Part shown: in pieces, positions 7,090 through 10,673 of the stretch
Numbering within the stretch: position 1 is the stretch's first letter
Layout: each line of letters starts with the position of its first letter
Assembly: GCA_021849045.1 (NCBI GenBank)
Contig: JAJZTK010000034.1
Location: forward strand, 1-32,887
Reading direction: 5' to 3'
Length of the DNA: 32,887 bases
Origin: Deltaproteobacteria bacterium
GTDB taxonomy: Bacteria > Desulfobacterota > Desulfuromonadia > Geobacterales > DSM-12255
Notes under the pieces: model-generated
Databases searched by the model: none
The model's input: only the letters and a program-made list of their open reading frames with translations
What the model was told of the DNA's origin: nothing
Translations under genes and position numbers: made by a program

Positions 7090-7160
7090 TTCAGCCAGTT
7101 AGGGCTGTTTGGCTGAAGGATAATCCTCCATACTGTAAAGTTACCCGACAAAATTTGTCG
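7090..7160. promoter_or_regulatory. Dyads upstream of the regulator gene
   Basis: This gap holds a perfect palindrome CGACAAA-A-TTTGTCG (7146-7160) and competing inverted repeats: TTCAGCC (7090-7096) can pair with GGCTGAA (7111-7117), and CAGCC (7092-7096) with GGCTG (7103-7107). None is followed by a clean T-tract in the minus direction. They could form the 3' end of the glycosyltransferase transcript or operators for the regulator gene. I could not fix a promoter here. Confidence 0.35.
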
Positions 7161-7174
7161 AAAAACCTTACATA

Positions 7175-7861
7175 CTACCGGTCTAATCCGGGATTATTCG
7201 ATCCGAGCAGTTGGACAAACTCACGCGTCAAAGGCGCACCATTACCGGCACGCACCAACCCCTCCCGCTGCAGGTCTGCCGGGGTATCCACATCATGCCA
7301 CTCGGGCAGCAGCCGCACCCGCAGACCCGCCTCCTCAGCCCGCGCCAGACTCTCCGCCAGGACGGTGCCGGTGCTCCAGGCAATCCCCGTGAACAGACAA
7401 TCCGGCACCGCTTTCAGGGCCAGCAGATAATAGCCGCCATCTGTGCTCGGACCGAACACCACATCCACCGCGTCGTCAGCCAATGCCCGGAACGCCTGGT
7501 GCAGATAGTCGACCGGCAGGTCCGGCGCGTCGGTCCCGACAATGACCATCCGTCGGTGCCCGCGGGACAGGACCTCGCGGAACGCGCCGGCCATCCTTGC
7601 CCCCAGATCGCCCCCTTGCTGGGGCAACGACACAAAGTCGGGGGCAATCCCCTGAAAATACTGGAGCGCCGCCGGGTCATCCTGGTAAAAAAGAAAACGT
7701 TGCACCTGCAGTAGTGAACGCACCTTGGCCAGGGTGTCCAGGAGCATGCAGCGGTAGAGTTCGGCCGCCTCTTCAGGCGTGAGGGGAGGGGTCAGCCGGG
7801 TCTTGACCCGACCCGGGGCGGGAAGTTTGGCAAAAACGATCAGGGCGCTGTCGTGTAACAC
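7175..7861 (-). CDS. TIGR04282-type glycosyltransferase (DUF2064)
   Basis: The 228-residue protein has the nucleotide-diphospho-sugar transferase fold of the family called TIGR04282 or DUF2064. The N-terminal motif FAKLPAPGRVKTRL forms the nucleotide-binding loop, GTDAPDLP is the metal-binding region, and FGPSTDGGYYLL followed by WSTG is the conserved core. HDVDTPADL near the C-terminus is also typical. Some members sit in arsenosugar gene sets, but nothing here suggests arsenic chemistry, so the acceptor is unknown. Translation starts at GTG (7861), with GGTGG about 10 bases upstream. The region before the start holds two DnaA boxes and ends at the folE2 stop. It appears to have its own transcript or to be the last gene of the lon-folE2 string. 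Confidence 0.88.
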   Translation of the reverse strand: MLHDSALIVFAKLPAPGRVKTRLTPPLTPEEAAELYRCMLLDTLAKVRSLLQVQRFLFYQDDPAALQYFQGIAPDFVSLPQQGGDLGARMAGAFREVLSRGHRRMVIVGTDAPDLPVDYLHQAFRALADDAVDVVFGPSTDGGYYLLALKAVPDCLFTGIAWSTGTVLAESLARAEEAGLRVRLLPEWHDVDTPADLQREGLVRAGNGAPLTREFVQLLGSNNPGLDR

Positions 7862-7903
7862 GATTGTAAAACCACCATTTCAATGATAATGAAAAATTTA
7901 GCG

Positions 7904-7943
7904 TTATCCACAATTTCAGGGGTTTTCAACAGACTTATCCACA
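7904..7943 (+). promoter_or_regulatory. Two perfect DnaA boxes
   Basis: TTATCCACA occurs at 7904-7912 and 7935-7943, same orientation, starts 31 bp apart, about three helical turns. A weaker TTTTCAACA (7923-7931, two mismatches) lies between them, and an AT-rich stretch (7880-7900) adjoins. This matches the consensus DnaA binding site exactly. They lie between folE2 and the glycosyltransferase gene with no dnaA, dnaN, gidA or parAB genes nearby, so a regulatory or DnaA-titration role is likelier than the origin. Confidence 0.65.
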
Positions 7944-8004
7944 AGAACAATGAGCAGGATAAGGGAATTCCAGTATGCTCGGTGGCTCTCTTGTCCCCGG
8001 TCCT

Positions 8005-8856
8005 TTATCCTCGAACCTCACTCCTTCTTTTATCCCGTTCGATCGCTGCATAGGCCGAATGCTTGTGGATCGATTCGAAGTTCTCTGCCTCGACGCTGAA
8101 CCAGATGATGTTCTCCATGGCCAGGAAACGCTGGGTCACTTCACGGACAATGTCCTCCACGAATTTCGGATTCTCGTAGGCCTGCTCGGTGACAAACTTC
8201 TCGTCGACCCGCTTCAGCAGGGAATACACCGGACTGGAGCCGCACTCCTCCACCTGCGCTACCAGATCCTCGATCCAGACGAACTCCCGGTACCGGACCC
8301 GGATGGTGATGATGGAGCGCTGGTTGTGGGCGCCATACCGCGAAAGCTCCTTGCTGCAGGGGCAAAGCGAGGTGACCGGTATCCGGATGCCGAGGACGAA
8401 GTCGAAGCTATCCGCCAGGGAGGCGTTGAATTCACAGGTATACTCCATAAGCCCCTTGGCCTTGGAGACCGGCGCCCGCTTCTCGATGAAGTACGGAAAC
8501 TCCATCTCCAGGTGGGCACTGGAGGCCCCGAGCTTCTTCTTCATCTCGCCCAGAATGGTCTCCAGCTTGTCCAGGGCGATCTCCTCACGGTGAGCGTTCA
8601 GGAGCTCGACGAACCGGCTCATGTGGGTCCCCTTGAAGTGATGGGGCAGGTCCACATACATGTTGATCCGGGCCACGGTCTGCTGGAACTTCCGGTTCTT
8701 GTCCATGACCACGACCGGATAAGAGATATCCTTCACCCCCACCTTGTTGATCGGGATGTTGCGGGGATCGTGCAACTGCTGCACGTCGTGCAACGGCTGC
8801 CGGGATTGGGTATCCGGGACCGGGGACTGACTGTCACTCCCTTTCTTCTGATTCAC
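8005..8856 (-). CDS. folE2: GTP cyclohydrolase I, FolE2 type
   Basis: FolE2 (COG1469) converts GTP to 7,8-dihydroneopterin triphosphate, the first step of both folate and queuosine synthesis. The 283-residue protein has the family signatures DPRNIPINKVGVKDISYPV near residues 30-48, the active-site segment SLCPCSKE with Cys165 and Cys167, and HNQRS. Translation starts at GTG (8856), with AAAGGTG five bases upstream. The first about 22 residues are not typical of the family, which normally begins close to the HDxRNIPI motif; this extension is encoded by degenerate heptamer repeats. queC lies 30 bp upstream, so its product probably feeds deazaguanine synthesis, though folate cannot be excluded. 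Confidence 0.95.
   Translation of the reverse strand: MNQKKGSDSQSPVPDTQSRQPLHDVQQLHDPRNIPINKVGVKDISYPVVVMDKNRKFQQTVARINMYVDLPHHFKGTHMSRFVELLNAHREEIALDKLETILGEMKKKLGASSAHLEMEFPYFIEKRAPVSKAKGLMEYTCEFNASLADSFDFVLGIRIPVTSLCPCSKELSRYGAHNQRSIITIRVRYREFVWIEDLVAQVEECGSSPVYSLLKRVDEKFVTEQAYENPKFVEDIVREVTQRFLAMENIIWFSVEAENFESIHKHSAYAAIERDKRRSEVRG
8804..8838. repeat. Degenerate heptamer repeats inside the 5' end of folE2
   Basis: On the plus strand the units ATTGGGT, ATCCGGG, ACCGGGG and ACTGACT run head to tail (8805-8832), approximating ACYGGGG. They encode the unusual N-terminal residues of FolE2 (SQSPVPDTQS). A related block lies in the ABC-F gene at 14947-14996 and encodes a similar SQSPV segment. 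Confidence 0.5.
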
Positions 8857-8886
8857 GTTACACCTTTCTCATTTCACGATCATTCG

Positions 8887-9573
8887 TCACATGTCACGTC
8901 GCACATACTTCACCGGGTCCGGGACCCCGGCCTCGATGAACCCTTTGAGCCGCAGGCGGCATGAGTCGCAAAGTCCGCAGGCAAGTCCGTCGGGAGTGGG
9001 GTCGTAGCAGGAGTGGGTCCGACCGTAATCCACCCCCAGGGAAAGCCCACGGGTGATGATCTCCGCCTTGGTAAGGTGGATAAGCGGGGTGTGGATGGTG
9101 TAATGTCCCTTCCCCTCCACCGCCGCCTTGGTCGCAAGGTTGGCCATGGCCTCGAAGGCGGCGATGTATTCCGGCCGGCAGTCGGGATACCCCGAGTAGT
9201 CCAGGGCGTTGACACCGATGTAGATGTCGAAGGCGGAGAGCACCTCGGCCCAGCCCAGGGCAAAGGAGAGGAAGATGGTGTTCCGTGCCGGCACGTAGGT
9301 GACCGGGATGTCGCTCCCCACCCCCTCCTTGGGGACGGCAATGTCGGAGGTAAGGGCGCTCCCGCCGATCCTACGGTAGTCGAAATCCACCACCAGATGG
9401 TCCTTGGCCCCCATGGGCCGGGCATTCTTCTTGGCCAGTTCAAGTTCCACACTATGGCGTTGGCCGTAGGCAAAGCTGATGGCGTAGGGCTCGAACCCCT
9501 CGCTCCTGGCGATGGCCATGCAGGTGGTGGAATCGAGCCCGCCACTGTATAACACGACTGCTTTCCTGGTCAT
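8887..9573 (-). CDS. queC: 7-cyano-7-deazaguanine synthase
   Basis: QueC is an ATP-dependent enzyme that converts 7-carboxy-7-deazaguanine to preQ0 on the way to queuosine in tRNA. I choose the ATG at 9573, with GGAG nine bases upstream; an ATG at 9588 adds five residues but lacks a ribosome site. The 228-residue protein has the pyrophosphatase loop SGGLDS near residues 10-15, and the C-terminal zinc cluster of four cysteines (HSCYDP...CGLCDSC). Its start lies 18 bp after the mlaD stop, and folE2 follows. Two enzymes of one pathway, FolE2 and QueC, are thus in one transcript; queD and queE are not in the window. Confidence 0.95.
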
Positions 9574-9590
9574 GGTGCACAACTCCATTC

Positions 9591-10673
9591 TTAAAACAAA
9601 GAAAACTTCACGTACCGCTTCGGATTCTCCTTGATGTCCTTTACCAGGGCATCGACGCTCTCCACCATCCGGGTTAACCGGTCGTAGACCTCCCGGTCGT
9701 TGATGAGGCGGCCGGCGGTTCCTTCGGTGCCGCGCAGCCGGCCGGCCACGTCGTCAAACGACTTGACCGCACTGTCGGCCCGCTCGATGAGGGCCACCCC
9801 CTTGTCATACAGTTCGCGGTCACTCAGCAGCATCCCCACCGTGCTGTCGCTGGAAAGCAGCTTCCGGTTCAGCTCCCGCACATCCTCGGCCGCCTGGGTG
9901 CTCTTGTCGGCCACGGCCACCATCTTGTCATAGAGTTGACGGTCATGAACCAGCCGCCCAAGGGTGCCATCGGCTGACTGGATATCCCTGATGGTGTCCT
10001 CGGTCCTGGTCAGGATGGCAATGAGCCGGTCATAGGGCTCGCTGTTTTTGGTCAGCTTCCCCAGCGTCCCCTGCCCCTGGTTCACTGAGTGCGTAACGAT
10101 CTGCAGTTCCGCTGTCAGCCGCGAAAGGTTGTCGTAAAGTTTGGGATCCTTGGCAAAGCGGCCAAGGGAACCCTCCCCCTTATCAATCTTGTCCATGATC
10201 CCGTTGAGCCGGTCAAAGGCGGAACCGGCCTTCTGCATCACGTCGTCCAGTCGCGGCACCTCGGTGCCGGAGACCCGTGTCTCCGGTACCTCCGCATAGT
10301 GCCGGCTGGGGGTGATATCCACGTACTTTTCCCCCATCAGGCCACGAGTCTTGATGGTGATCCGGGAATCCTTGCCGACCTTCTTCAGCGCCTCATTCTC
10401 AATCTCCAGGAGGACCTCCACATCGTTGCTCTTCCTGGCGTCGACAAAACGGATATCCTTGACGATCCCCACATCCACCCCGGACAGCCAGACCGGCGCC
10501 CCGACCTTCAGCCCGGCCACGTCAACCATGACCAGCGTTATCTCCCCCTTGGGAACGAACATCTTGGTCTTGTCCCCCATGAGCAGCACGCCGCCGGCGA
10601 AGAGCAAGAGGGCGATGACGATGAAGATGCCGGTGGTTACCTGCGACCATCCTAGGGTGTCACTACGTTTCAT
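9591..10673 (-). CDS. mlaD: MlaD-family MCE-domain protein with an extended repeat tail
   Basis: The 360-residue protein has one N-terminal membrane helix (about residues 14-33) and one MCE domain (about 38-122, with [11 protein letters not shown] and [10 protein letters not shown]). MCE proteins carry lipids between inner and outer membrane with an MlaEF-type transporter. Escherichia coli MlaD is only about 180 residues. Here residues 165-345 contain five copies of a unit resembling G[ST]xG[RK]L...D[RP]xLYD, with the YD pairs near 180, 214, 248, 289 and 330. The protein ends [11 protein letters not shown]. The gene overlaps mlaF by 4 nt and precedes queC by 17 nt. The tail may lengthen the lipid conduit across the periplasm, an inference. 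Confidence 0.92.

Follow-up and report, generated by a model that had tools for sequence, protein, structure and literature searches.

An array of three DnaA boxes, all in the same direction, is located behind folE2 in the DNA analyzed here and, judged by comparison of related loci, is conserved across the class Desulfuromonadia, which comprises soil and sediment bacteria, in two discrete box spacings. We propose that this array might be a chromosomal DnaA-control site like the DnaA-box clusters of Bacillus subtilis or datA of Escherichia coli, a reading for which we see about an even chance. The site and its surroundings in the window, i.e. the whole stretch of 32,887 nucleotides that was analyzed, are as follows:

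7935..7943, plus strand: box 1, perfect DnaA box TTATCCACA (TGTGGATAA on the gene strand), array offset 0
7923..7931, plus strand: box 2, weaker box TTTTCAACA, 3 bp from box 1, offset +12
7904..7912, plus strand: box 3, perfect DnaA box TTATCCACA, 10 bp from box 2, offset +31
7892..7901, minus strand: CTA and T-run adjoining box 3, CTAAATTTTT on the minus strand, in Geobacterales only
7892..7943, minus strand: whole array, matched by the sequence-only profile R1 with 56.5 bits and E 9.5e-15, the site itself being one row of the profile
7175..7861, minus strand: DUF2064 / TIGR04282 glycosyltransferase-like gene, downstream neighbor
8005..8856, minus strand: folE2 (GTP cyclohydrolase FolE2), upstream neighbor
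8887..9588, minus strand: queC, next gene upstream of folE2

The two perfect boxes, both on the plus strand, are 31 bp apart from start to start with 22 bp between them and represent the only exact copies of TTATCCACA in the window, while box 2 has two mismatches. Boxes 1 and 2 form a direct double DnaA box (7923-7943; TTTTCAACA-GAC-TTATCCACA), i.e. two boxes in the same direction separated by 2 or 3 bp, and all three boxes are found within 40 bp, away from dnaA and from the GC skew switch, as a DnaA-box cluster outside of oriC. The array is located in the 143-bp intergenic gap between folE2 and the DUF2064 gene (7862-8004), with a GC content of 0.41 over the whole gap and 0.35 at positions 7850-7949, compared to 0.64 and 0.58 in the flanking genes. 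Thereby, the pair of perfect boxes in the same orientation, the weaker third site between them and the AT-rich DNA alongside, as described in the first-pass annotation, were confirmed. The closest named relative found was Geobacter argillaceus (FolE2 98% identical); the array is present in this cultured environmental bacterium as well as in Geomobilimonas luticola and Geomonas sp. Red32. The host genome encodes an Hda-like protein (152.7 bits, below its cut-off of 194.8). An RNA element was also considered and rejected, since positions 7800-8100 yielded no Rfam match at E values up to 1 and RNAalifold predicted zero base pairs for 38 arrays.

The exact 9-mer TTATCCACA is present in 18 copies in the 4.33-Mb host genome and a reversed-pattern control in 19, so that a lone box carries no meaning and a chance cluster of a common 9-mer had to be considered. 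Exact double boxes (TTWTNMACA-n3-TTWTNMACA) were found only three times genome-wide, i.e. beside dnaA, at the array site, and on contig C260, and with up to one mismatch seven double boxes were found in the host genome compared to three for the control. Searched with the whole-array profile, in which the window site itself is one of the 38 rows, this site had an E value of 9.5e-15 in the host genome, and an identical geometry was present in 91 of 95 loci across two groups. The observed conservation thus refutes the chance reading, to which we assign practically no probability; the genome-wide count suggested along with the first-pass annotation gave background frequency for the 9-mer, but a frequency far above background for the pair with the third box. 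On contig C260 (L244:1501-1533) of the host genome, three DnaA-type boxes in the same direction, TTTTCAACA, TTATTCACA, and TTATCCCCA, were observed in an intergenic region with 3 bp between each.

For analysis of conservation in the order Geobacterales (families f1-f4; f5-f22 denote the other families of the class), a sequence-only array profile was run over 141 genomes. The full array was found in 57 of 65 genomes of f1-f3, 56 of them reaching at least 30 bits and one (G059) scoring 25.2 bits with a matching gene context; the conservation in relatives that was to be checked is therefore very strong. All other matches in array-bearing genomes were partial and below 25 bits, and the array is single per genome. 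The 38 arrays aligned without gaps, with a mean information of 1.30 bits per column within the array compared to 0.14 bits upstream of it and 0.27 bits downstream of it. The corresponding intergenic gap of relatives holds three boxes at fixed offsets, with the gene-strand consensus TGTGGATAA, n3, TGTTGAAAA, n10, TGTGGAHAA, nnCTA, and a T-run, and the box variants TTATC[C/A]ACA, TTTTC[C/A]ACA, and TTGTCCACA are DnaA-box-like. Each base of the CTA beside box 3 is kept in 37-39 of 40 rows, which is nearly box-level conservation in Geobacterales. The offsets 0/+12/+31 were found in all 55 scanned loci, which had been preselected as array carriers with omission of G017, G012, and the array-less genomes, and likewise in G017.

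Among the eight genomes of f1-f3 without the full array, G003, G008, and G010 had no folE2 match and G081 a distant one only, the contig of G076 terminates at folE2, and G007 carries a two-box remnant. In G004 and G021 the array is missing behind folE2; at another place in G004 (L218), a partial match with 25.5 bits was excluded from the count. In family f4, the array was found in none of 76 genomes at 25 bits, the best match having 23.6 bits, and those partial matches of this family that were fetched showed other box arrangements at other loci. A geometry scan of 24 f4-like loci, which were preselected as array-less and therefore test only for another spacing, revealed no array at any spacing. 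In genus g14 (L025, L031, L041, and others), the palindrome AGTCAA-n4-TTGACT was observed 12-25 bp before box 1.

Outside of Geobacterales, 40 folE2 loci from 15 families of the class were read without fixing either offset. In 36 of these loci, 0/+12/+21 scored best; the remaining four comprise L287, which has the same geometry just below the threshold (22.2), and three f18 loci without array. The two positions of box 3 differ by 10 bp, i.e. about one helical turn, so that the helix face would be kept. A single spacing shift at the base of Geobacterales may underlie this difference. When a 0/+12/+21 profile was run over 394 genomes of the phylum using strict filters that drop weak sites, 11 genomes matched at E ≤1e-4, all within the class.

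The array is nearly always located between folE2 and DUF2064, and DUF2064 follows it in most loci. This would fit a promoter region through which the DUF2064 glycosyltransferase gene responds to DnaA, as had been suggested in the first-pass annotation, and so would the absence of the array where folE2 and DUF2064 abut (f4 and f18) and the role of DnaA as a known transcription factor (PMC8203912, in the part consulted). However, the array is present in eight genomes without DUF2064 behind it, three from Geobacterales (G059, G078, and G079) and five from genus g44. In G078 and G059 it is followed by a pyridine nucleotide-disulphide oxidoreductase gene, which we take to be trxB-like, and in G079 by a convergent gene of the PALP family, presumably ilvA-like. 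A search for DUF2064 in G078 (84% complete) found none, and in G079 and G059 only relatives at 34% and 41%, located elsewhere, were seen. Between G078 and G079, the fourfold sites of folE2 agree at only 68%, while the arrays differ at one of 27 box positions and five of 13 spacer positions; the array overlaps the end of folE2 in both genomes, so that coding constraint may contribute. The five g44 genomes (f11) represent an unrelated lineage, in which folE2 and the array are followed by genes of the TolQ/ExbB and then the TolR/ExbD family, as assigned by a Pfam check in one of the five.

Loci with a different upstream neighbor were found as well. In G012 (an 81% complete draft), the array lies between a divergent dihydrofolate reductase gene (folA) and DUF2064, with folE2 on a separate contig without array, and in G202 the order is queC, array, and DUF2064 with no folE2 match within the 3-kb locus. 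Neither neighbor is thus strictly required where the array is kept, which argues against the promoter of a single gene. Furthermore, the distance from the array to the DUF2064 start ranges from about 10 to 120 bp, and the sole promoter-like match over the array (9/12) is at chance rate (two in the region vs 0.9 expected). Control of the glycosyltransferase gene by DnaA is therefore disfavored by the loci without DUF2064, with which a one-gene promoter fits badly, and we regard it as improbable.

The strongest rival to replication control is a DnaA-dependent roadblock, in which DnaA bound behind the folE2 stop codon would halt RNA polymerase coming from queC-folE2 and insulate the next gene, perhaps in a cell-cycle-linked manner. 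In E. coli, DnaA boxes can terminate transcription. The array follows directly behind folE2, and in f6 the folE2 stop codon forms the three terminal bases of box 1 in eight of 12 loci. A search for intrinsic terminators at 7100-9700 of the window gave none behind folE2, the sole hit being located at 9403 on the other strand, and a roadblock would be sensible also before trxB-like, tolQ-like, or convergent genes. On the other hand, the array of G012, between divergent genes in an 81% complete draft, receives no incoming upstream transcript, so that a one-gene terminator fits badly, and in f4 and f18 folE2 and DUF2064 are side by side without array. Altogether, we consider the roadblock rather unlikely. 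Since the form of the array is constant despite changing neighbors and the array is near the origin in several families, we favor replication control by titration or nucleotide switching, at about even chances, over gene regulation. Titration, which the first-pass annotation had named as its second option, or some other role in DnaA control would fit better than control of the glycosyltransferase gene.

Regarding chromosome position, the first-pass annotation had placed the boxes away from any replication gene, which holds for the contig of the window but not for six genomes of other families (f10, f11, f16, f17, and f22), where the array is found 18-26 kb from dnaA. In these, the distance between array/folE2 and dnaA is 19 kb (G168), 21 kb (G182), 19 kb (G208), 17.7 kb (G209), 17.6 kb (G210), and 25.9 kb (G228). 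In nine closed Geobacterales genomes, it amounts to about 328 kb (G067), 332 kb (G077), 396 kb (G043), 410 kb (G031), 420 kb (G033), 431 kb (G035), 756 kb (G039), 771 kb (G022), and 879 kb (G017), i.e. 330-880 kb, so that near-origin timing is not kept there. In G217 (f18), where the array is absent, folE2 is 259 kb from dnaA.

Clustered DnaA boxes next to AT-rich DNA, and the location of the array near dnaA in some families, would also be expected for a part of the replication origin or an additional origin. The sign of the GC skew switches at dnaA and not at the array in G209 and G182, 19-22 kb off the array, and therefore the array is not the origin. In G043 and G022, the skew sampled in 20 segments of 20 kb per genome (in G022, one segment consisted entirely of N and another partly) is compatible with an origin at dnaA, although the signal is weak and noisy and some segments have the opposite sign; in G168 and G228, the skew was not informative. 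By eye, no DnaA-trio repeat was found beside the array, whereas the dnaA-dnaN gap of the likely oriC of the host (L019:781-970, 2461-2530) contains a DnaA-trio-like repeat TAGTAGTAGCAGTAG next to a TGTTGATAA box. An origin function of the array thus appears extremely improbable. At the dnaA gene of the host, a double box was observed upstream, and TTATCAACA boxes flank the gene.

A search with the array profile in the 100-kb surroundings of dnaA in four genomes recovered the array at folE2 and, for three genomes, an additional array 11-12 kb from dnaA. This second array, of the 0/+12/+21 kind and about 11-12 kb from dnaA wherever the distance was measurable, is located after a gene of the endonuclease/exonuclease/phosphatase family and before nth (L336:11702, L331:9041, L342:12202, L386, L392, L378, L364, and L388). 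Further matches about 10-12 kb from dnaA were found in G161, G162, G171, G208, and G214, those of G171, G208, and G214 beside the same nuclease/nth genes to the extent visible in the fetched loci. No second array was present near dnaA in G209, and no array in the origin stretches of the Geobacterales genomes G043 and G022. Altogether, 30 array matches were fetched, comprising 18 folE2 arrays, five at nuclease/nth, two beside DUF2064 with folE2 out of view (one locus being ended by the contig edge), and five at other loci. In L387 and L391 from two genomes, array-like matches were observed beside genes with similar protein starts (…NE[VI]FFLGHTD…), possibly another DnaA-linked gene family.

If the array acts as a DnaA-control site, boxes 1 and 2, in the same direction and 3 bp apart, could form a cooperative double box for DnaA, with box 3 docking further DnaA on the same helix face and extending a presumably head-to-tail complex. 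Once the replication fork has duplicated the site, this complex would take up DnaA or switch its nucleotide state, and further initiation would thereby be damped. While the boxes with their order, direction, and two spacings, the conservation over the class, the position near the origin in several families, and the persistence beside different neighbors were observed, DnaA binding, the head-to-tail complex, and any effect on initiation are inferred. In favor of a control site, the array far exceeds chance and was found once in each of 57 of the 65 f1-f3 genomes. Against it, the array is absent from all 76 f4 genomes and three f18 loci and is therefore not indispensable. Three boxes would bind few DnaA molecules and hence be a weak titrator, the near-constant position between folE2 and DUF2064 would be needless for a free-standing site, and no conserved IHF site was found.

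Most of what is known about chromosomal sites tuning DnaA comes from E. coli and B. subtilis, with datA stimulating DnaA-ATP hydrolysis and the DARS core promoting the release of ADP from DnaA. By its title, a study of Okumura et al. (2012) reportedly deals with DnaA-box clusters near oriC of B. subtilis. According to the parts consulted of two articles (PMC5295017, PMC13220808), B. subtilis has DnaA-box clusters outside of oriC, and loss of all six leads to early initiation, so that the clusters may hold DnaA away from oriC. These clusters are closest in concept to the array, which for its part has a fixed three-box design in one direction with two spacings across a class.

The E. coli locus datA, like the array, is a non-coding DnaA-box locus near the origin, and a role in DnaA control is proposed for the array as well. 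However, the closest box pair of datA in MG1655 is head to head, while the array boxes are all in one direction, and datA needs an IHF site at a set spacing to its boxes (PMC5742627 and PMC4585315, sections consulted), whereas no IHF-like site at a fixed position was found at the array. IHF-like motifs with one mismatch were found within 200 bp of 33 of 38 arrays compared to 7.2 expected from plain shuffles, at scattered positions, the commonest of which (seven loci) overlaps the palindrome of genus g14.

The cores of DARS1 and DARS2 share with the array three DnaA boxes at conserved spacing including a direct pair 3 bp apart, but box I is opposite to boxes II and III (PMC5742627, as far as consulted), head to head at 5 bp, while the array has no inverted box. 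A DARS-like identity of the array was therefore rejected, as its three boxes have the same direction both in the window and throughout the aligned arrays. In vivo, E. coli DnaA prefers a direct box pair 3 bp apart, and double DnaA boxes such as that of purH combine, like the array, a weaker and a perfect box of the same orientation with 3 bp between them (both from the consulted part of PMC11317965); in the array, one more box follows at a fixed distance, and the site is located behind a gene whose downstream neighbors vary. Within the open-access titles and abstract openings searched, no such site was described for Geobacter or Desulfuromonas, and the consulted part of PMC4914508 mentions DnaA boxes only for locating the origin. 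As a mostly single-copy, class-wide array that is separable from its neighbors and has two spacings, the site offers a natural experiment on box spacing and helical phase.

Of the 141 Geobacterales genomes, 94 carry a separate motif resembling the DARS core, i.e. a box, 5 bp to a second box head to head, and 2 bp to a third box with one mismatch permitted, once per genome except for two copies in G096, while a control pattern gave no match in the 141 genomes. A head-to-head pair with 5 bp is also present in DARS1 and DARS2 of E. coli, where it is followed by 3 bp instead of the 2 bp of the Geobacterales motif. Tentatively, the array may be a class-specific DnaA-control element of Desulfuromonadia with a new design, in which three head-to-tail boxes have the third box at either of two positions one helical turn apart. 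Such an element would be located close to the origin in several families, have a further copy in front of nth, and act alongside the distinct DARS-like site. If this is true, Desulfuromonadia would run a datA/DARS-like DnaA cycle from parts unlike those of E. coli. With the array and the DARS-like motif, the spread of DnaA switch sites becomes directly testable. In the host genome, the DARS-like cluster is located between murJ and a DUF815 gene (C243:12923-12968, corresponding to L260:1924-1969), with the motif match itself at C243:12935-12968, and other DARS-like loci are L261, L264, and L344-L363.
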